From an uncultured Pelagibacteraceae bacterium (lineage in GTDB: Bacteria > Pseudomonadota > Alphaproteobacteria > Pelagibacterales > Pelagibacteraceae), in assembly GCA_902571925.1 (NCBI GenBank), contig CACGDW010000002.1:62001-126000 (forward strand): a stretch of DNA of 64,000 nucleotides, given 5' to 3'. Both the position numbers and the translations under genes were made by a program. The notes beneath the pieces are model-generated. The model searched no databases. It was not told the DNA's origin and saw only the letters and a list, made by a program, of their open reading frames with translations. This document shows, piece by piece, positions 3,155 to 41,905 of this stretch. Numbering within the stretch: the stretch's first letter is position 1; each line of letters opens with the position of its first letter.

Positions 3155-3961
3155 ATGAGTAAGATCTACGATTGTGTAACATTTTTTCAAGAAAACTTAC
3201 AAATGGAATTAAGATTCTCAATTTTAGAAAAAGTAGTTGATAAGTTTGTAGTATGTGAGTCAGCTTATGATCATAGAGGGAATTCAAAAAAAATTAATTT
3301 TTCAAAAAAGAAATTTGATAAATTCCAAGATAGGATTGAACATGTTATTATTGAAAAAAAATTTCCTGACAAGAACACACCTTGGCAAAACCAAGCATGG
3401 CAAAGAGAACATATATTTGACGGAATAAAAGAAGCTTCTTTAGACGACTACATAATGTTCTCAGATCCTGATGAAATTCCAAATCCTTTAAAACTAAAAG
3501 ATTTTCGATTAAAGAAAAAATTTGGTATTTTTTTTCAAAAAATGTTTACTTATAAAATGAATTTATTCAATAAATACGAGACACCTTGGGAAGGCACTAG
3601 AATTTGCAAAAAGAAGGATTTAAAATCTATAGATTGGTTAAGACACAAGGTTTTATATAAAAATCTTAAATATGGATTTTGGCGAATTGACAAAGAAAAA
3701 AATATTGAAATAATTAATGATGGAGGATGGCATTTTAACTATTTGTTAAAACCTGATGAAATCTCAAAAAAATTTAAAAGTTTAGCAGAAACAAGTTGGG
3801 ATGATGAAAAATATTATGATGAAAAAACAATTAAAGAAAAAATTGAAAAAAAGATAGATCTGTTTGATAGAGGACATATCTTTGAACATATAAAAATTGA
3901 TGAAAGTTATCCAGATTATATTAAAAACAATCTTAAAAAATATTCGGAGTGGATTTTATGA
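3155..3961 (+). CDS. glycosyltransferase family 17-like protein (beta-1,4-N-acetylglucosaminyltransferase-like)
   Basis: MSKIYDCVTFFQENLQMELRFSILEKVVDKFVVCESAYDHRG, FSDPDEIPNP and GGWHFNYL are typical GT17 features. Confidence 0.8.
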   Translation: MSKIYDCVTFFQENLQMELRFSILEKVVDKFVVCESAYDHRGNSKKINFSKKKFDKFQDRIEHVIIEKKFPDKNTPWQNQAWQREHIFDGIKEASLDDYIMFSDPDEIPNPLKLKDFRLKKKFGIFFQKMFTYKMNLFNKYETPWEGTRICKKKDLKSIDWLRHKVLYKNLKYGFWRIDKEKNIEIINDGGWHFNYLLKPDEISKKFKSLAETSWDDEKYYDEKTIKEKIEKKIDLFDRGHIFEHIKIDESYPDYIKNNLKKYSEWIL

Positions 3962-4827
3962 TGGGTAAAAAAATTTTGTCAAAAAATTTAAATGATTTGA
4001 ATAATTATGCTTTAAAAAAAAGAAAAATCTATCAAAAAGGAAAACCTTATCCACACATTGTCATAAAGAATTTCTTTGATAAAAAGTTTTTAAGCCAAAT
4101 TCTCAATGAATTTCCAGATCTTTCTAAAATTAAATCTTCCAACAATTATGATAATAAAAATGAAATTAAATTTGCAAACAATAAGAAAAAAAATTTTAAA
4201 AAAAATACAAAAATATTTTTTAATTATTTAAATTCAAAAAATTTTATTGATTTTATTCAAAAACTGTCTTCTATAAACGAAAAGTTGCTTCCAGATCAAA
4301 AACTAAATGGTGGGGGTTTACATGAAATTAAAAGAGGAGGTGTCCTAAAGATTCATACTGATTTTAATAAACATCCTACTAAAGATATAGACAGAAGAAT
4401 TAATGTTTTAATTTATTTAAATAAAGGGTGGAAAAAAAATTATGGGGGCAACTTGGAGTTATGGGATAAAAATATGAAAAAATGTGTAAAAAAAATTTTA
4501 CCTTCATTTAATACAATGGTTATTTTTTCAACTAATGATTTTACTAATCATGGACATCCAAATCCATTAAAATGTCCGGAGGAAATTTCAAGAAAATCAA
4601 TAGCCACTTATTATTTTTCTAAGGGTAGGCCAACTAGTGAAGTTATTAGAATCAAAAAAAAAAATACTACAGCTTTTAAAAACAGACATGGAGAAAAAAA
4701 TGATGTTTATGTTAAAAAAGAGTTTTTTAAAAATTTTATTAGAAACTTTGTCTTTTATCAAAATATGAAAAATCTTGAAAAAAAATATTTAAGAACTGGC
4801 AATTCAAAAAAAAAAAGAAAAAATTAA
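3958..4827 (+). CDS. 2OG-Fe(II) oxygenase (prolyl-4-hydroxylase-like)
   Basis: HTDFN...[13 protein letters not shown]...GGNLELWD...NHGHPNPL...[10 protein letters not shown]: HxD...H...R jelly-roll signature. Likely ATG at 3958 (ATGA overlap with the upstream stop) rather than the GTG at 3949. Confidence 0.8.
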
Positions 4828-4830
4828 AAT

Positions 4831-4920
4831 GGAGAGATGGCCGAGTGGTTTAAGGCGCACGCTTGGAAAGTGTGTATGGGGGCAACCCTATCGTGGGTTC
4901 GAATCCCACTCTCTCCGCCA
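4831..4920 (+). tRNA. tRNA-Ser (anticodon GGA)
   Basis: GGAGAGA/TCTCTCC acceptor, long variable arm, anticodon loop CTTGGAAAG, TTCGAAT T-loop, encoded CCA. Confidence 0.96.
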
Positions 4921-4942
4921 TTATGAAAAGTCTTAAAAGTAA

Positions 4943-5743
4943 ATGAGCAAAGATATAGCTATAATTACAACAATATACAAAACACCATTATCAAAAATCG
5001 TAAATTTAAAAAATTATAAAGGTTTTCAAACTTTTGTATTTGAGCAAGAAGGAAGAGAAGATTCTGGAAAAAAAATTTTTAATAAAATTAACTTAAATTT
5101 TAAATATTTTTTTAATAAAAAAAATATTGGTCTTAGTAAATCATCAAATTTTTTATTAGAAAAAGTTCAGTCTAAATATTGTCTCTTTACCCAACCAGAT
5201 ATTAAAATTGAAAGAAAAAGTATAATTAGATTGTCTAAAATTTTAAAAAATAATAAAAAGGCCATTTTAGTTACTCCTAGTTTATTAAAAAAAAAGAAAA
5301 GAAAAGATAAACAAATAAAGTTTGTAAATAAAATTGATGCAGCATGTATTTTGTTTGATGTAAAAAAAATAAAAGAAATAGGTTTATTTGATGAAGACTA
5401 TTTTTTGTATTGGGAAGACATAGATTTAATGAAAAGAGTGAATCAATCAAAATATAGAATGATTTTAGCTAATAATATTTTTGCTTATCATGAAGGTAGT
5501 CAATCAACAATTAATGATCACAAGATAATGTGCTTAAGGAGCAAGAATTTTACTTATGGTGAATTTATATATGATCTAAAGAATAATAAGTTGAGATTTA
5601 TTAAGGTGATTAGAAAATTAATACAAAATTTTTTCTTATTTTTCTTTAATATTATTAGATTTCATCTAAAAGATAGTCTTAAAAATTTAGCAAATTTTAA
5701 TGGTATTTTAAAATTTATTTTTTATTATTTGAAAAGAATTTAA
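4943..5743 (+). CDS. glycosyltransferase family 2 (rhamnosyltransferase-like)
   Basis: [49 protein letters not shown]2 rhamnosyltransferase-type motif. Confidence 0.8.
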
Positions 5744-5747
5744 CATC

Positions 5748-6926
5748 ATGAAAAAATTTTTAGATTTAGGTTATCAGCCATTAGCTAATTCTTATTTAAA
5801 TGCAAAAAATCTTAACAAAAAGGAAAAAAAATTTAAATTAACGGTAGGTTTTGATGAAAAAAATTATCTTGTATCAATATTAAACACTGTCCCTAAAGAA
5901 ATGATGTTTAATAAGGATTATCCTTATAAATCCTCAGAGTCACTAACTATGAGAGATGCATTTAAAATACTTTCAAATAAGATTAAAAAAACATTTAAAC
6001 CACAAGCTATATTGGAAATTGGAAGTAACGATGGTGCCTTCATTAAAAATTTTAACAAGAAAAAAGTAATAGGTGTAGAGCCGTGTAAAAATCTTGCAAA
6101 TATAACAAAACAAAAAGGTTATAAAACTTATTCAGAATATTGGAATACAGATTTAGCTAAAAGAATAACAAAAAAAAGGAAAGTAGATTTGATTTACTCT
6201 GCAAATACGCTTAGTCACATAAAAAATTTTTCTGAGATATTCAAAGCTATTGAGCTATCTTTAAGCAAAAATGGTATTTTAATTTTGGAGGATCCTTCTT
6301 TATTAGAGTGTATTAAAAAGGTTGCATACGACCAATTTTATTGTGAACATATATATGTCTTTTCTACTATCGCATTACAAAAAATTTTACAAAAGTTTGG
6401 ATTAGTAATTTTTAATATTGAAAATACCAAAACACATGGTGGATCAAATAGATATTTTATAAAAAAAAAGATTAATACGAAATTTAAAATTAATAAGAAA
6501 GTAAATAAAAATATTAAATTAGAAAAAAGATTTGGACTACATAAGCTTATTACCTACAAAAAATTTGCCAGAAAAGTTTTTACTTCAAAAAATAAATTGT
6601 GTAAAATTTTTATTAATCTTAGATCAAAAAATAAGAAAATTATTGGTTATGGAGCAACAGCAAAATCGTGCACTGTATTAAATTATTGTAAAATTAATAA
6701 AAAATATATTGATTTTTTTTATGACACAACTTCATTTAAGATCAATAAATATTTACCAGGTAGTAAAATTAAAATTAGAAAATATAAAAAGCTAAATCGA
6801 AATGAAGCGGACTTTGTTTTTTTAGGTGCCTGGAATTTCAAAGAAGAAATTTTTAAAAAAGAGAGAGAATTTATTAAAAGAGGTGGAAAGTTTATTACTC
6901 ATATCCCATTTCCCAAAATCATCTAA
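5748..6926 (+). CDS. SAM-dependent sugar C-methyltransferase-like protein (Methyltransf_13/23/14 architecture)
   Basis: FLDLGYQPLANSYL, ILEIGSNDGAFIKNF, EHIYVFS, THGGSNRYF, GYGATAKSCTVLNYC. Confidence 0.8.
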   Translation: MKKFLDLGYQPLANSYLNAKNLNKKEKKFKLTVGFDEKNYLVSILNTVPKEMMFNKDYPYKSSESLTMRDAFKILSNKIKKTFKPQAILEIGSNDGAFIKNFNKKKVIGVEPCKNLANITKQKGYKTYSEYWNTDLAKRITKKRKVDLIYSANTLSHIKNFSEIFKAIELSLSKNGILILEDPSLLECIKKVAYDQFYCEHIYVFSTIALQKILQKFGLVIFNIENTKTHGGSNRYFIKKKINTKFKINKKVNKNIKLEKRFGLHKLITYKKFARKVFTSKNKLCKIFINLRSKNKKIIGYGATAKSCTVLNYCKINKKYIDFFYDTTSFKINKYLPGSKIKIRKYKKLNRNEADFVFLGAWNFKEEIFKKEREFIKRGGKFITHIPFPKII

Positions 6927-6931
6927 AATCA

Positions 6932-7447
6932 TTAAAAATCTTTAAAATTTAAACCTTTGCGATCTTTTTTTGAGAGTAAGGGTTTTTTTATCGGCCACTT
7001 AATTCCGAGTGTTTTATCATTCCATTTAATAGTAGTTTCGCTATTTTTATCTCTATAATTTGTACACTTATAGTAAACCCCACATCTTTTGGTTAAACAA
7101 AGAAAGCCATGTGCGAAATGTTGCGGTATAAAAAGTGAAAAATTTGAATTTTGTGAAATTTCAATAGAAAAATGCTTTCCGTAAGTTTTCGAATTTTTTC
7201 TTAAATCAACCACAACATCTAAAATTTTTCCTTGAACCACGGTAATAATTTTTGCCTGACTTTTTTTCTTTTGTAAATGCAAACCTCTTAAAGTATTTTT
7301 TTTAGAAAAAGAAAAACAATCAAAAATGAATTTTTTTTTAAGAATTTTGTTTTGTTCAACTTCTTTAAAAAATCCTCTTTTATCTTTATATATTTTAGTT
7401 TTAATTAATACTAAATCTTTTATATTTGTTTTGATTTTTTTAATCAT
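6932..7447 (-). CDS. rfbC: dTDP-4-dehydrorhamnose 3,5-epimerase family
   Basis: DKRGFFKEVEQ, NTLRGLHLQKKKSQAKIITVVQGKILDVVVDLRKNSKTYGK, FIPQHFAHGFLCL. Confidence 0.9.
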   Translation of the reverse strand: MIKKIKTNIKDLVLIKTKIYKDKRGFFKEVEQNKILKKKFIFDCFSFSKKNTLRGLHLQKKKSQAKIITVVQGKILDVVVDLRKNSKTYGKHFSIEISQNSNFSLFIPQHFAHGFLCLTKRCGVYYKCTNYRDKNSETTIKWNDKTLGIKWPIKKPLLSKKDRKGLNFKDF

Positions 7448-8322
7448 TAGAATTGATTTATAATTTTTTGTTCAATATTTTTATCACTATTCCAACTAGG
7501 CAAAATTTTAAAATAATTCTTATTAAATTTATTTATCTTATGGTCTAAAAATTTAATTTTTAACTTTTTTTTTATTTTTTTATTAATATTTTTTATTAGA
7601 TTCTTAATCTTAATGTTCTTAACATTTTTTAAGCAATATGTTCCACTTTTTAAATTATTTTTTAACAAAATATTTACTGCATTTATAATATCTTCAACAT
7701 GAATTAGATTTAATTCTAATTTTTCAGAAATTATAGTAGTTTTGTCATTTTTTTTGTAATTTTTAATTAGAGTTGGAATTAATTTTTTTCTTTTGTCATT
7801 TTCATCAAAACTTTCATAAAATTTAAGGTTATAAAGTTTCAATTTTCGATTTTTAAAATTATAATAATCAAGAATAATTTCAAAAGCAGATTTAGTAGAT
7901 CCATATAAATTTTTTGAATTAAAATCCTTTCCATTTGTATGTTGCATCATAGTACCAAAATTAATTATTTTTTTTGTTTTTAAATGAACTAAATCCATCA
8001 ACATAGTTGGAAATGTGATATTAGAATCTATGAATTTTGGTATTTCATTATATGAATGTGTATTTTTATATAAAGTTGCAAAGTTGATAAAATAGTCGAT
8101 ATTTTTATTTCTAAGTTTTTTTGATAAATCACTGTATTCTGAATAAAAAATTGATTTATAATTTTTTTTGTATTTTCTTCTTAAATAATTTAAATCTTTA
8201 TTTTTTTTATTATTACTTCTTAAAATATCAAATATATCATAACCTTTTTTAAGAGCATTCTTTAAAAAAAGATTTCCAATAAAACCAGAGGTTCCAGTAA
8301 TTAATAATGTCTTTTTTTTCAA
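7447..8322 (-). CDS. NAD-dependent epimerase/reductase (SDR; RmlD- or CDP-abequose synthase-like)
   Basis: N-terminal LLITGTSGFIGNLFLKNAL; catalytic-type YGSTKSAFE (YxxxK). Confidence 0.75.
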   Translation of the reverse strand: MKKKTLLITGTSGFIGNLFLKNALKKGYDIFDILRSNNKKNKDLNYLRRKYKKNYKSIFYSEYSDLSKKLRNKNIDYFINFATLYKNTHSYNEIPKFIDSNITFPTMLMDLVHLKTKKIINFGTMMQHTNGKDFNSKNLYGSTKSAFEIILDYYNFKNRKLKLYNLKFYESFDENDKRKKLIPTLIKNYKKNDKTTIISEKLELNLIHVEDIINAVNILLKNNLKSGTYCLKNVKNIKIKNLIKNINKKIKKKLKIKFLDHKINKFNKNYFKILPSWNSDKNIEQKIINQF

Positions 8323-9185
8323 ACTATAATCTTTTTTAAATATGTACTATATTCGCAATTACCATAAAATTTTAAATTTTGTTTAATATTTTTTTTACTA
8401 ATCCATTTTTTTAAAAAGGCAATTTCATCTAAACAAGCTATTTTTATTCCCTGAACTTTTTCTACAGATCTGACATAATTAGATACGTTACTTAAATCTT
8501 CCATTTTTCCAGCATCTGACCAAATTGCTCCTCTACCAATTAATTCATATTTAAGTCTATTGTTTTTTTTATATTTATTTATTAAGTCAGTTATCTCAAG
8601 CTCACCTCTTTTAGAGGGTTTTAATTTACTAGCATAATCACATACTTTTTTATCAAAAAAATATAAACCAGTTATTGCTTTATTAGAAAAAAATTTTTTT
8701 GGCTTTTCAACAATCTTATCGATCTTATTTTTTTTTATTTTTGCAACTCCATAATTTTCTGGTTTGTCTACTTCTTTTAAAAAGATAGTTGCACCTAATT
8801 TGTGTTTAGAAGATTTCTCCAAGATCTTTGTTAAACTTTGTCCATAAAAAAAATTATCACCTAAAATTAGAGCTACACTATGATCTTTTATAAAAGATTT
8901 TCCAAGGTTAAAGGCGTCTGGAAGTCCTCTAGGTTTTGATTGTATCTTATAAGTAATATCTATTCCATATCTAGAACCATTGCCAAGTAAACTCTTAAAA
9001 TTTTCTATTTGGCCAGGATTAACAATGATCAAAATATTTCGAATGTTCGCAAGCATCATCACTGACAAAGGATAAAAAATCATTGGCTTATCATGTATTG
9101 GCAATAATTGTTTATTTATTGACTTAGTTAAAGGACTTAACCTAGTTCCAAATCCACCAGCAAGAATTATACCTTTTTTAATCAT
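8319..9185 (-). CDS. rfbA: glucose-1-phosphate thymidylyltransferase
   Basis: KGIILAGGFGTRLSPLTKSINKQLLPIHDKPMIFYPLSVMM, LGDNFFYG, ENYGVAKI, GRGAIWSDAG. Confidence 0.93.
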   Translation of the reverse strand: MIKKGIILAGGFGTRLSPLTKSINKQLLPIHDKPMIFYPLSVMMLANIRNILIIVNPGQIENFKSLLGNGSRYGIDITYKIQSKPRGLPDAFNLGKSFIKDHSVALILGDNFFYGQSLTKILEKSSKHKLGATIFLKEVDKPENYGVAKIKKNKIDKIVEKPKKFFSNKAITGLYFFDKKVCDYASKLKPSKRGELEITDLINKYKKNNRLKYELIGRGAIWSDAGKMEDLSNVSNYVRSVEKVQGIKIACLDEIAFLKKWISKKNIKQNLKFYGNCEYSTYLKKIIV

Positions 9186-37459: not shown

Positions 37460-38146
37460 ATGAAAAATATAATCAATATAGGAATCCCAAGTAAAGGCAG
37501 ACTAAGAAAAGATGTTTTAAATATCTTTAAAAAAAAAAGATTAAAACTAATTTCTGAAAGAGGTGAGAGAGACTTAATTGGTTCTATTAAAAGTAAATCA
37601 AATGTTAAGATTCTTTATTTACATGCAAGAGAAATTATTCAAAGATTAGGAGATGGTTCTTTAGATATAGGTTTTTCGGGGTTTGATTTGCTTAAAGAAG
37701 GAGAGATTAATATTCAAAAAAAAATTAACTTAATCAAAAAATATGAGTTTGGAAAAGCAACTCTAGTTGTTGCTATTCCAGATCCATGGATTGATGTTCA
37801 AACAGTTGCTGATTTAGAAGAAATTGCATTTGAGTTTAGAGATAAAAAGAAAAAAAAATTAAGAGTTGCTACTAAATATCCAAATCTAACTAAAGAATTC
37901 TTATTCTCAAAAGGTGTAACTCAATTTCAGCTAGTCGAAAGTTTGGGTGCTACCGAGGCCTACCCTTTTACAGGTTCCGCGAATTTGATTACTGATATCA
38001 GTTCCACTGGTGAGACTATAAAAAGTAATAACTTACGTGTCCTTAAAGATGGTGAGATTTTAAAATCCCAAGCATGTATTTTTACCTCAAAGAAAAATTT
38101 TAAGAAAAAAGGTTTAAAAGCTTTAGTCAAATTACTTACCAAGTAA
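37460..38146 (+). CDS. hisG: ATP phosphoribosyltransferase, short form
   Basis: NIGIPSKGRLRKDVLNIF, DGSLDIGFSGFDLL, RVATKYPNLTKEFLFSKGV, LVESLGATEAYPFTGSANLITDISSTGETIKSN. Confidence 0.94.
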   Translation: MKNIINIGIPSKGRLRKDVLNIFKKKRLKLISERGERDLIGSIKSKSNVKILYLHAREIIQRLGDGSLDIGFSGFDLLKEGEINIQKKINLIKKYEFGKATLVVAIPDPWIDVQTVADLEEIAFEFRDKKKKKLRVATKYPNLTKEFLFSKGVTQFQLVESLGATEAYPFTGSANLITDISSTGETIKSNNLRVLKDGEILKSQACIFTSKKNFKKKGLKALVKLLTK

Positions 38147-38293: not shown

Positions 38294-39385
38294 ATGGACA
38301 CAATTTTATTAATTATTTTAGTTTCTTTATTAAGTACGACATTAGCTATTTTGTATTTGAATATCAGATCTAAACCAAAGTCAGACAATAAAGAGTCAGA
38401 GGAAATAGCCAACTTAAAAACTGAAATAGTTACATTAAAAGATACCTTAAATAATACTATAAATACTTCACTTGGCACCATGTCGACTTCCTTCAATGCA
38501 TTATCAACTGGGGTTACAAAGGATATGACTGAAGCCTTAACAAAAGTTGATGAGAAGGTTGGTAATTTTAATCAACAGGTACAATTATTAAATCAAAGCC
38601 AGGAGGGTATTACTAAAATTTTAGCAGGTGTTAAAAAATATGGAACCTTAGCAGAGTATTCTCTTGATGCTTTAATTAAAGATTTATTGCCTGCATCTCA
38701 ATTCATGACAAATGTTAAAATGAAAGAAGATACGAGTGAAAATGTAGAATTTGCAATTAAACTTCAAGGGGATGTTTTAGTTCCAGTAGACTCTCATTTT
38801 CCTGTAGAAAAATTTAAAGCAATTACTGATGCACATGAAGCTGATGATAAAAGAGAAGTTGCTGATGCTAGAACAAAGCTAGCAAATGCTTTTAAAGCTA
38901 AAGCTAAAAGTGTAATGGAAAAATATATAGTTCCACCTAAATCAACAGATTTTGCAATAGTGTATGCACCAACAGAAAGTCTTTATAAAGAATTGACTGA
39001 ATATCAAGATCCAAGCACTAAAGAACTATTAACTCAAGAACTAATGAAAAAATATAAAATAGTAATTTGTGGCCCTAATACTCTTTCAGCTTATTTACAA
39101 TCCTTACATATGGGTTTTCAATCATTGAAAGTTCAAAAGGGAGCTACAGAAATATATAATCATCTTAAAACTATTACCACAAGATTTGGAAAACATTTTG
39201 ATAATATAATTACTCTTAGAAAAAAATTAGAAGAAGCGATGAGTGTAGTAGATAAGTTTGGTACTGATGCAAGGTCAATCAGTAGAACTTTAGAAAATAT
39301 AAAAGATCCCGAGCAGGTTGAGAAAGCTCTTCAATCAGAAAATGTAGAAAAGTTTGTTGAAAGAAACAAGCAACTTAAAAATTAA
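38294..39385 (+). CDS. rmuC: DNA recombination protein RmuC
   Basis: N-terminal TM, coiled coil, then VEFAIKLQGDVLVPVDSHFPVEKFKAI, FAIVYAPTESLYKEL, VICGPNTLSAYLQSLHMGFQ. Confidence 0.9.
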   Translation: MDTILLIILVSLLSTTLAILYLNIRSKPKSDNKESEEIANLKTEIVTLKDTLNNTINTSLGTMSTSFNALSTGVTKDMTEALTKVDEKVGNFNQQVQLLNQSQEGITKILAGVKKYGTLAEYSLDALIKDLLPASQFMTNVKMKEDTSENVEFAIKLQGDVLVPVDSHFPVEKFKAITDAHEADDKREVADARTKLANAFKAKAKSVMEKYIVPPKSTDFAIVYAPTESLYKELTEYQDPSTKELLTQELMKKYKIVICGPNTLSAYLQSLHMGFQSLKVQKGATEIYNHLKTITTRFGKHFDNIITLRKKLEEAMSVVDKFGTDARSISRTLENIKDPEQVEKALQSENVEKFVERNKQLKN

Positions 39386-39422: not shown

Positions 39423-40109
39423 ATGCAATGGAATAGAAAATATGATTATCCTTCGTCATCAAGAGCAACAGTAGAGGGAATTAGAAGATATGTACTAGGA
39501 GAGTCAAAACTACCAAGTGTTACTTCGATTTTAGACGCAACTAAATCTGAAGAAGATAAAGCAGCTTTAGCTAATTGGCGCGAAAGAACTGGTCAAAAAG
39601 AAGCTGAAGCAATTACAAAAGCTGCAAGCAGTCGAGGTTCAAAAATGCATAACTATTTAGAGTCTTTTCTTTTAGGAAGAGAAAATTTAAGTTTTTTCGA
39701 AGATGGAGAACAATACAAATCTATGGCTAAAGAAATTATTGATAAAGGTTTAAAAAATAGGTTAGAAGAAATATGGGGAGTTGAATGCACACTTTACTAT
39801 CCAGAAAAATATGCGGGAACTGCTGATTGTGTTGGAGTTTATGAAGATAAACAAACAATTATTGATTTTAAACAAAGCAATAAACCAAAAAAAGCTGAGT
39901 ATATAGACTCTTGGTTTTTACAAACCAGTGCATATTCTTTAGCTCACAATATTGTGTATAACACAAACATCACATCTTGTGTAATTCTTGTTTGTACAGT
40001 AGATAATCTTTTTCAAGAATTTAAAATTCAAGGCTCCGAGTTGATAGCTTATCAAAATTTATTTTTGGGAAGATTAAAAAAGTTTAATGAAATGAATAAT
40101 TTAGATTAG
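39423..40109 (+). CDS. PD-(D/E)XK exonuclease, MGME1/phage-exonuclease-like
   Basis: KLPSVTSILDAT, RGSKMHNYLESFL, YAGTADCVGVYEDKQTIIDFKQSNKPK (D...DxK core). Likely start MQWNRKYDYP at 39423. Confidence 0.75.
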   Translation: MQWNRKYDYPSSSRATVEGIRRYVLGESKLPSVTSILDATKSEEDKAALANWRERTGQKEAEAITKAASSRGSKMHNYLESFLLGRENLSFFEDGEQYKSMAKEIIDKGLKNRLEEIWGVECTLYYPEKYAGTADCVGVYEDKQTIIDFKQSNKPKKAEYIDSWFLQTSAYSLAHNIVYNTNITSCVILVCTVDNLFQEFKIQGSELIAYQNLFLGRLKKFNEMNNLD

Positions 40110-40116
40110 CAAAAAA

Positions 40117-41553
40117 ATGGATAAAATAGTAATTTACGACACAGAAACAACTAACAGTACTATTTGGGGATCAATTATTGAAGTTGGAGCAGTTGTAGTT
40201 GATAAAAATCTTAAAGAGATTGGAAAACTAAATATCAGAGGCAGAATGCCAGAGGGAGAAGTCCCTTCTGCTAAAGCACTTTTAGTTAACTCTACAAGTA
40301 TTGATTTACTTACTAAAGGCAATTATTCACATTATGAATTTTTAGGTGCAGTTGAAAATTTCTTTGTAAAAGCTGCTCCTGCTTTGTTTATGGGCTGGAG
40401 TAATTTAAATTTTGACAGAAGAATGTTTCATTTCAATTTTTTTAAGGGAAATAGGTATCCTTATTTAACTCACTCCTCACCAAACCAGGAACATGATGGT
40501 TTACATGTAGCAAGAGCTGCCCAAACTATAGATTCTAAAACATTAAAAACAGAATTAACAGAAGCAGGAAATGAGAGTTTGGCCTTGGAGGGTTTGGCCC
40601 GTCAGCAAGGTTTTGATACTTCAGCAGCCCACACTGCTTATGTAGATGCACATAATTCCTTAAAAATTTTAAGAATTATTAAAGACAAACATAAAACAAA
40701 CTGGGAAAAATTTTTAGGTACTTCGACAAAAAGTAGTGTGGAGTCTATTTTAAAAGGCGAAGGCATATATTCAATTTTTGAAAATGTTAAGGGAAGAAAT
40801 ATGATGTATCTAGTTTGTACATTACATCCAGCTCATTGTTTTCATCCTTCTTATACATCTTGGGGGTATTTATGGGATTTAAGAAGAGATCCACAACCAT
40901 TTTTAAATATGTCAGTAAATGAGCTTAAAGCAAATTTGAAAAAGATCAGTCCTAAAGCACTTCGGGTGATTAAGACTAATAAAGCTCCAATAGTTTTAGA
41001 TAAAAAGTTTGCATTAAAAGAAAAGGCATATTCAGATCTTGATTTAGAGACAATTAAAAAAAGAGCAGAATTATTGAGAAGCAGCGAAAAATTTTGTCAA
41101 AATATTCAAATTATTAATAGAGAAGCAGCAGAGGAAAAAGCACAAACCAAAACTCAAGAAGATTTATTGCCAGAAGAAACTTTGTATGAAAAGTTTATTC
41201 CAAATAAAGATACTTCCCTATTCAAAATATGGCACAGCTCTTCCTGGGAAGACAAATTAAGAATGTTAGATAAATTTCAAGATAAAAGATGTAGTTGGTT
41301 TGGGCAAAAAATTATCTATCAAGAAGCACCACAAATTTTACCACCAGATTTATATAAAAATATTAAAAGCGAAATTGCGAGACGAATTTTAAGTAAAAAC
41401 AAAGAAAAGTGGCAAACAATAGGGATGGCTTATAACGAGATTGATATATTACGAGATCAAGCAGATAATAAAGATGATGAAGATGAACTTAAAAAGTTAG
41501 ATGAAATTAATGAATTTATTATGTCTATTGAAAAAAAATATGAAATTGCCTAG
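40117..41553 (+). CDS. sbcB: exodeoxyribonuclease I-like DEDDh 3'-5' exonuclease
   Basis: IVIYDTETTNSTIWGSIIEVGAVVVD, LFMGWSNLNFDRRMFHFNFFKGNRYPYL, LEGLARQQGF...AHTAYVDAHNSLKI; ExoI-like C-terminal region. Confidence 0.82.
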   Translation: MDKIVIYDTETTNSTIWGSIIEVGAVVVDKNLKEIGKLNIRGRMPEGEVPSAKALLVNSTSIDLLTKGNYSHYEFLGAVENFFVKAAPALFMGWSNLNFDRRMFHFNFFKGNRYPYLTHSSPNQEHDGLHVARAAQTIDSKTLKTELTEAGNESLALEGLARQQGFDTSAAHTAYVDAHNSLKILRIIKDKHKTNWEKFLGTSTKSSVESILKGEGIYSIFENVKGRNMMYLVCTLHPAHCFHPSYTSWGYLWDLRRDPQPFLNMSVNELKANLKKISPKALRVIKTNKAPIVLDKKFALKEKAYSDLDLETIKKRAELLRSSEKFCQNIQIINREAAEEKAQTKTQEDLLPEETLYEKFIPNKDTSLFKIWHSSSWEDKLRMLDKFQDKRCSWFGQKIIYQEAPQILPPDLYKNIKSEIARRILSKNKEKWQTIGMAYNEIDILRDQADNKDDEDELKKLDEINEFIMSIEKKYEIA

Positions 41554-41587: not shown

Positions 41588-41905
41588 ATGCTTATAGATT
41601 TTAAAGACGAAGACTTTGATAATAAAGTAAAAAATGAAGATGTATCAGTTATTCAATTTAGTGCTGCTTGGTGTGGACCATGTAAAGCCTTAAAGCCGGT
41701 CATGGATAAATTAGCTGTAGAGTATAAAGATAAAGCAGGATTTTATTATGCAGATATTGAAGATGGTGGGATAAATACAGGAAGTGCCGCAGGAATAAGA
41801 GGCGTGCCTACAGTTATTATTTATAAAAAAGGTGTAGAAGTAGATAGAAAAGTTGGTGGAGTTCCAGAAAGCCACATGAAAGAATTTTTAGAAAAAAATA
41901 TCTAA
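41588..41905 (+). CDS. thioredoxin-fold protein
   Basis: VIQFSAAWCGPCKALKPVMDKLA, GIRGVPTVIIYKKGVEVDRKVGG. Confidence 0.94.
   Translation: MLIDFKDEDFDNKVKNEDVSVIQFSAAWCGPCKALKPVMDKLAVEYKDKAGFYYADIEDGGINTGSAAGIRGVPTVIIYKKGVEVDRKVGGVPESHMKEFLEKNI

Follow-up and report, generated by a model that had tools for sequence, protein, structure and literature searches.

MGME1 is the closest solved structure to the protein described here. Human MGME1 cuts single-stranded DNA (ssDNA), preferring 5′-phosphorylated ends (PMC9460513), and it also cuts flaps (PMC4222359, PMC6237815). It has an aromatic pin formed by Trp152 and Phe173, and its activity is lowered by H180Q, D238N, and D251N (PMC6237815). In the part of the MGME1 literature covered by our search, the enzyme is termed mitochondria-specific and related to RecB; the comparisons drawn are with RecB-type and other PD-(D/E)XK nucleases, with no mention of phage or bacterial family members. 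Meanwhile, one phage protein in BFVD is already annotated with the MGME1 name, and therefore annotators have seen the resemblance.

Phage homologs belong to the family phrog_298. This family occurs in pelagiphages (HTVC023P/HTVC027P, 023Pt_psg01) and further in the jumbo phages PA5oct, 121Q, and Atu_ph07 and in T4-like cyanophages. Its genes sit among phage genes, for example, by an SF2 helicase gene or, in cyanophages, between phoH and gp33/gp59. At the loci of cyanophages and SAR11 myophages that we inspected (L041-L046), the T4-like cyanophage homolog adjoins the phoH and gp33/gp59 genes; this MGME1-family protein is sometimes annotated as "exonuclease A."

Here, we describe a SAR11 member of the family, found in a window of 64,000 nucleotides (the whole stretch of DNA that was analysed). 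It adds a chromosomally resident member to a family already known, and the pattern in which its alleles are exchanged was not expected. The SAR11 protein has in common with human MGME1 the predicted fold, the residues H180/E223/D238/D251/K253, and the pin residue W152. However, it lacks the mitochondrial N-terminal extension and a counterpart of F173, and its partner would be ExoI, whereas that of human MGME1 is Pol gamma. It is homologous over its full length to the phage phrog_298 family and has the same invariant residues, with identities of at most 54% to members in viral contigs and at most 44% to those in phage isolates. Unlike the phage genes, the SAR11 gene is chromosomal, with rmuC on one side and ExoI on the other, and its sequences make up a separate clade.

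The Locus

The ORF encodes 228 amino acids and is terminated by a stop codon in the translation of the window. An in-frame TTG at 39354 is an alternative start that would give a longer product; in the alignment with relatives, the ATG at 39423 is the start that is kept. The first-pass annotation had taken this ORF as a genuine 228-aa protein, and both the stop codon and the shared ATG bear this out. The closest copies are 95-96% identical and lie on contigs of Pelagibacterales SAG-MED01 and SAG-MED11, in agreement with the SAR11-type host that had been proposed.

The gene order in the window is hisS-hisZ-hisG-rmuC-MGME1-like-exoI-trxA, followed on the opposite strand by folC-accD-trpA-trpB (table 1). 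The his, trp, folC, and accD genes were named from sequence reading and synteny, the remaining neighbors from family searches. The window ExoI retains the DTE and HTAYVDA motifs. Elsewhere in the window, positions 3155-9185 hold glycosyltransferase-, sugar-nucleotide-, and epimerase-like ORFs of low G+C between lepA-like and gyrB-like genes; judged from the translations, this is probably a surface-polysaccharide variable region.

Table 1. Features of the MGME1-like locus, putative active-site residues, and the corresponding slot in related genomes
Feature	Position	Strand	Basis
hisG-like ORF, left slot edge	37460..38146	+	Position in his cluster and synteny; named without family search
rmuC, upstream by 37 bp, conserved neighbor outside the exchanged cassette	38294..39385	+	PF02646, E 2e-49
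MGME1-family PD-(D/E)XK ssDNA exonuclease (predicted activity), 228 aa	39423..40109	+	PHROG, PDB sequence, and Foldseek matches
Trp52 = MGME1 Trp152 (one of two aromatic pin residues)	39576..39578	+	Alignments; pin per PMC6237815
His76 = MGME1 His180 (metal ligand)	39648..39650	+	Invariant in 37 sequences and MGME1
Glu121 = MGME1 Glu223 (motif I)	39783..39785	+	Alignments
Asp135 = MGME1 Asp238 (metal ligand)	39825..39827	+	Invariant in alignments
Asp148-Phe-Lys150 = MGME1 Asp251-Trp-Lys253, D-x-K of PD-(D/E)XK core	39864..39872	+	D and K invariant
Exonuclease I (SbcB/ExoI-type 3′-5′ exonuclease), downstream by 7 bp, co-exchanged partner	40117..41553	+	PF08411, E 5e-17; NF008746, E 1e-29 (below that model's cut-off)
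trxA (thioredoxin), 34 bp 3′ of ExoI, right slot edge	41588..41905	+	PF00085 and synteny
hisG-trxA slot and surroundings in related genomes	L053:8889-14350; L054:9089-12307; L065:1733-4270; L091:3-4750; L098:4773-9902		

Family Identity and Predicted Structure

The product of 39423-40109 is a member of the MGME1/phrog_298 exonuclease family. Pfam gave a PD-(D/E)XK match alone, below threshold. In the PHROG search, the top family was phrog_298 "exonuclease" (E 1e-47), and the next family reached 3e-6 or weaker. When 177,635 PDB sequences were searched with phmmer, the credible matches were chains of human MGME1 only (E 4e-11, residues 22-223), and the first match after them had an E of 0.95. 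A profile built from 37 family sequences raised the MGME1 match to E 3e-30; beyond it, there was noise or UvrD/Rep-type helicase chains of 6ppu and 7sjr (AdnAB; E 0.19). The reverse search with human MGME1 also ended in phrog_298 (E 4e-23, next family 3e-4), and a tblastn search with human MGME1 found 505 phage records, cyanophages for the most part. The identity between the 228-aa protein and human MGME1 is about 26%.

The protein is predicted to have the MGME1 fold. The AlphaFold2 model, made from an alignment of 58 sequences, had a mean pLDDT of 95.3 and a pTM of 0.90. In a Foldseek search of the PDB with this model, ranks 1-9 were all MGME1 (E 7e-13 to 2e-11, TM up to 0.86), followed by DinG (6.5e-6), RecE (2.7e-5), Cas4-like (6e-5), and AddAB (5e-4) structures. 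The counterparts of H180, E223, D238, D251, and K253 (residue numbers counted from the 5zyt chain, offset 20) are invariant or nearly so across the family alignments. Meanwhile, the second pin residue of MGME1, Phe173, is aligned to Ser69 of the SAR11 protein and is not conserved.

These results agree with the earlier reading. The likeness to human MGME1 in whole layout is found again in the full-length phmmer match and the top Foldseek rank, and the MGME1 segments quoted there (PSVTRVLQQT, QGKRFHEALESIL, and GLLDCVAEYQGKLCVIDWKTSEKPK) are present letter for letter in the PDB sequence. In addition, the proposed PD-(D/E)XK core with its DxK is confirmed by the invariant Asp148 and Lys150, aligned with Asp251 and Lys253 of MGME1.

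Distribution

Our Pelagibacterales sample comprised 247 genomes, 159 of Pelagibacter (the genus of the window) and 88 of other genera. The MGME1-like gene was found in 148 of the 159 Pelagibacter genomes (93%). A search with the family profile found none in the 11 gene-negative Pelagibacter genomes; its one match in another genus was weak and spanned 47 residues. The 88 other genomes yielded a single match, on a 3.4-kb contig (G087:C25, locus L068) of a MAG of another family; this contig carries Pelagibacter-like accD-folC-trxA-ExoI and the end of an MGME1-like gene, and because its neighbors are Pelagibacter-like, we regard it as contamination. Among the best 80 relatives on named GTDB contigs, 75 were from Pelagibacter/SAR11, and the other five were MAG contigs of mixed origin.

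A sample of 385 genomes of the class gave no MGME1-like gene in other genera (about 380 other Alphaproteobacteria), a result against an ancestral alphaproteobacterial gene shared with mitochondria. Homologs are numerous in viruses: 920 GenBank phage records matched the MGME1-like protein at E up to 1, and at least 566 IMG/VR viral contigs have a homolog.

Probable Phage Origin and Chromosomal Residence

The origin tree contained 75 rows, 22 of them from Pelagibacter. The chromosomal sequences (21 of the 22 Pelagibacter rows and one MAG row) formed one clade (100/97), which was nested in a pelagiphage-type clade (99/95), and the latter was nested in a larger phage clade. This nesting indicates a phage origin, and thus the SAR11 gene was probably acquired from a phage. 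The remaining Pelagibacter row, L158, grouped with a virus; since its neighborhood of short genes resembles that of the phages with which it groups, it probably stems from a phage contig within a single-cell genome. Two of the 121 loci (L158 and L163) are copies in Pelagibacter assemblies that lack the usual neighbors; most probably, these are contigs of phages that ended up in a single-cell genome or a MAG.

In the 75-row tree, the very long branch of human MGME1, the one eukaryote included, does not allow its precise placement. The SAR11 sequences group within the phage ones and apart from human MGME1, which argues against a strict ortholog of eukaryotic MGME1.

Other Pelagibacteraceae genera have the order rmuC-ExoI-trxA without the MGME1-like gene, so that an insertion of the gene at this place is most likely. 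In addition, its dN/dS is 0.04-0.10, with synonymous changes far above non-synonymous ones, so that the protein is under strong purifying selection. The first-pass annotation had offered a bacterial flap/ssDNA exonuclease or a derivative of pelagiphage-type exonucleases as alternatives. The tree and the synteny favor both together: the gene would be phage-derived and is now chromosomal, and the SAR11 protein falls inside, not outside, the clade of pelagiphage-type exonucleases. The idea that the phage also brought in ExoI was rejected: at E 1e-4, this ExoI had no relative encoded in any phage record, and the ExoI-trxA arrangement predates the gene insertion.

Exchange with ExoI

ExoI adjoins the MGME1-like gene in 119 of 121 loci. 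Among 42 thinned genomes of identical gene order, the pairwise distances of the MGME1-like gene were correlated with those of ExoI (r = 0.755), in contrast to those of the adjacent rmuC (r = 0.11); likewise, r was 0.12 for ExoI and rmuC and 0.75 for rmuC and hisG. A smaller set including trpA, trpB, accD, and folC agreed with the coupling of the MGME1-like gene and ExoI. Each MGME1-like class has one ExoI class, with no mixing, and rmuC is nearly one class. Furthermore, in 180 genome pairs, rmuC was >85% identical but the MGME1-like protein <60%, and ExoI was also <60% in 168 of them. Thus, the MGME1-like gene and ExoI are exchanged as one cassette: their divergent alleles are replaced jointly, and the flanks on both sides stay conserved.

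On a gyrB tree with 81 genomes, a minimum of 20 changes of the allele class (absence included) is required. Strict vertical inheritance was therefore rejected: the distances of the MGME1-like gene are not in line with those of trpB, accD, or rmuC, and the allele classes are scattered over the gyrB tree. However, neighboring genes travel together in a single recombination tract, and for this reason the coupling need not mean joint function. Passive linkage explains it sufficiently, and a functional pairing is a hypothesis.

The hisG-trxA slot is a hotspot in Pelagibacteraceae, with DISARM DrmA/DrmB, an MZA-like Z1 protein, a Mokosh-like helicase-nuclease, and extra RmuC genes. The window's own slot contains no DISARM, MZA-like, Mokosh-like, or extra RmuC gene.

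Other Nucleases of Pelagibacter

RecJ (a DHH phosphoesterase) and ExoVII (XseA) have folds unrelated to that of the MGME1-like protein; like it, they would work at 5′ single-stranded ends, and both are lost or rare in Pelagibacter. ExoVII (xseA) was absent from all 15 Pelagibacter genomes tested and RecJ from 133 of 159, whereas RecJ is kept in most other Pelagibacterales genera. No AddA scored above the family cut-off in 117 Pelagibacterales genomes. Meanwhile, the 5′-3′ exonuclease domain of PolA was retained in 24 of 24 genomes tested. Okazaki flap removal thus needs no substitute, and this role was rejected for the MGME1-like gene.

Replacement of RecJ was also rejected: RecJ is missing in 9 of 11 gene-negative and 124 of 148 gene-positive genomes (Fisher's P = 1.0). 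RecJ presence differed between allele classes (0/72 vs. 24/76), but this link was not significant once kinship was allowed for in an independent-pairs test.

Function and Alternative Explanations

We favor, with moderate confidence, a domesticated phage ssDNA exonuclease that is near-core in Pelagibacter and trims 5′ ends beside ExoI, which acts on 3′ ends. E. coli ExoI is established to work in the 3′ to 5′ direction. We infer the activity, the 5′ polarity, and the end-trimming role of the SAR11 protein. A Pelagibacter ancestor would have taken a gene of the MGME1/phrog_298 family from a phage, and this would have become the near-core chromosomal gene. By homology to MGME1, the enzyme may thread a single-stranded end through a helical arch and may prefer 5′-phosphorylated ends and flaps. 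Cleavage would use two metal ions on His76, Asp135, and Asp148, assisted by Lys150 and Glu121. ExoI would take off 3′ single-stranded ends, so that both kinds of ssDNA tail could be trimmed at breaks, gaps, and recombination intermediates. As ExoVII is absent, RecJ is mostly absent, and no AddA was found above the cut-off, a pair trimming both polarities is plausible. Since the statistics for RecJ replacement failed and PolA has kept its 5′ nuclease, end-trimming in genome maintenance is the likeliest role, and anti-phage defence is a rival to be taken seriously.

According to this rival, which we consider possible but appreciably less likely, the MGME1-like gene and ExoI are an exchangeable anti-phage cassette. 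Its enzymes might, though we doubt it, degrade single-stranded ends of phage DNA as it enters or replicates, and it is conceivable, again with low confidence, that phage inhibitors or protected ends drive the allele divergence. For a plain housekeeping enzyme, it is unusual that divergent alleles are swapped as a cassette and that the slot is shared with defence genes. The joint exchange between conserved rmuC and trxA, the repeated class changes over the gyrB tree, and the origin of the gene in phages fit defence, as do the DISARM (DrmA/DrmB), MZA-like, and Mokosh-like proteins in the slots of relatives. However, some of the absences may be assembly gaps, and a gene in 93% of the genus is commoner than typical defence genes. 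In addition, no PADLOC model of a system with an MGME1-like protein was matched, just a weak Cas4_II (E 1e-5), and the PADLOC match of ExoI to an RT-associated SbcB fits any ExoI.

It is very improbable that the protein is a RecB/Cas4-type PD-(D/E)XK nuclease with the DxK core alone in common with MGME1. There were weak matches to PDDEXK_1, Cas4_II, and the AddA nuclease tail, and RecE, Cas4, lambda exonuclease, and the AddAB nuclease domain have the PD-(D/E)XK superfamily core in common with the SAR11 protein. However, their structural match is far weaker (E 3e-5 to 5e-4, TM ≤0.5), the full-length sequence and structure matches favor MGME1 by many orders of magnitude, and human MGME1 and the SAR11 protein reciprocally lead to phrog_298. 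The check for a better Cas4, RecB, or restriction-type match thus returned MGME1 as the best structure, aligned over the full length beyond the DxK core.

Least probable of all is that the gene belongs to a recent prophage, or to a piece of phage DNA in the assembly: phages are the nearest non-Pelagibacter sequences and two of the 121 loci look like phage contigs, but the position by rmuC and ExoI is constant in tens of genomes, including single-contig ones (contigs up to 1.46 Mb), the surroundings are free of phage genes, the low dN/dS speaks against it, and the conserved chromosomal synteny rules it out for the window.

Significance

With these results, MGME1 gains a family of clear full-length relatives, found in phages and in a bacterium that is among the most abundant in the ocean, and small bacterial and phage homologs are offered for biochemistry. 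The origin of MGME1, a mitochondrial disease gene, becomes testable by phylogeny. As a speculation, MGME1 might come from the phage exonuclease family and be a further phage-type part of mtDNA replication; the same family might have been domesticated independently by SAR11, where it could form with ExoI a rapidly exchanged, two-polarity ssDNA nuclease cassette for anti-phage defence and DNA maintenance. The finding also brings to light a pair of nucleases exchanged as a cassette, at a site where defence genes occur as well. Furthermore, it suggests how the streamlined SAR11 cells may treat DNA ends after ExoVII was lost and RecJ was mostly lost.
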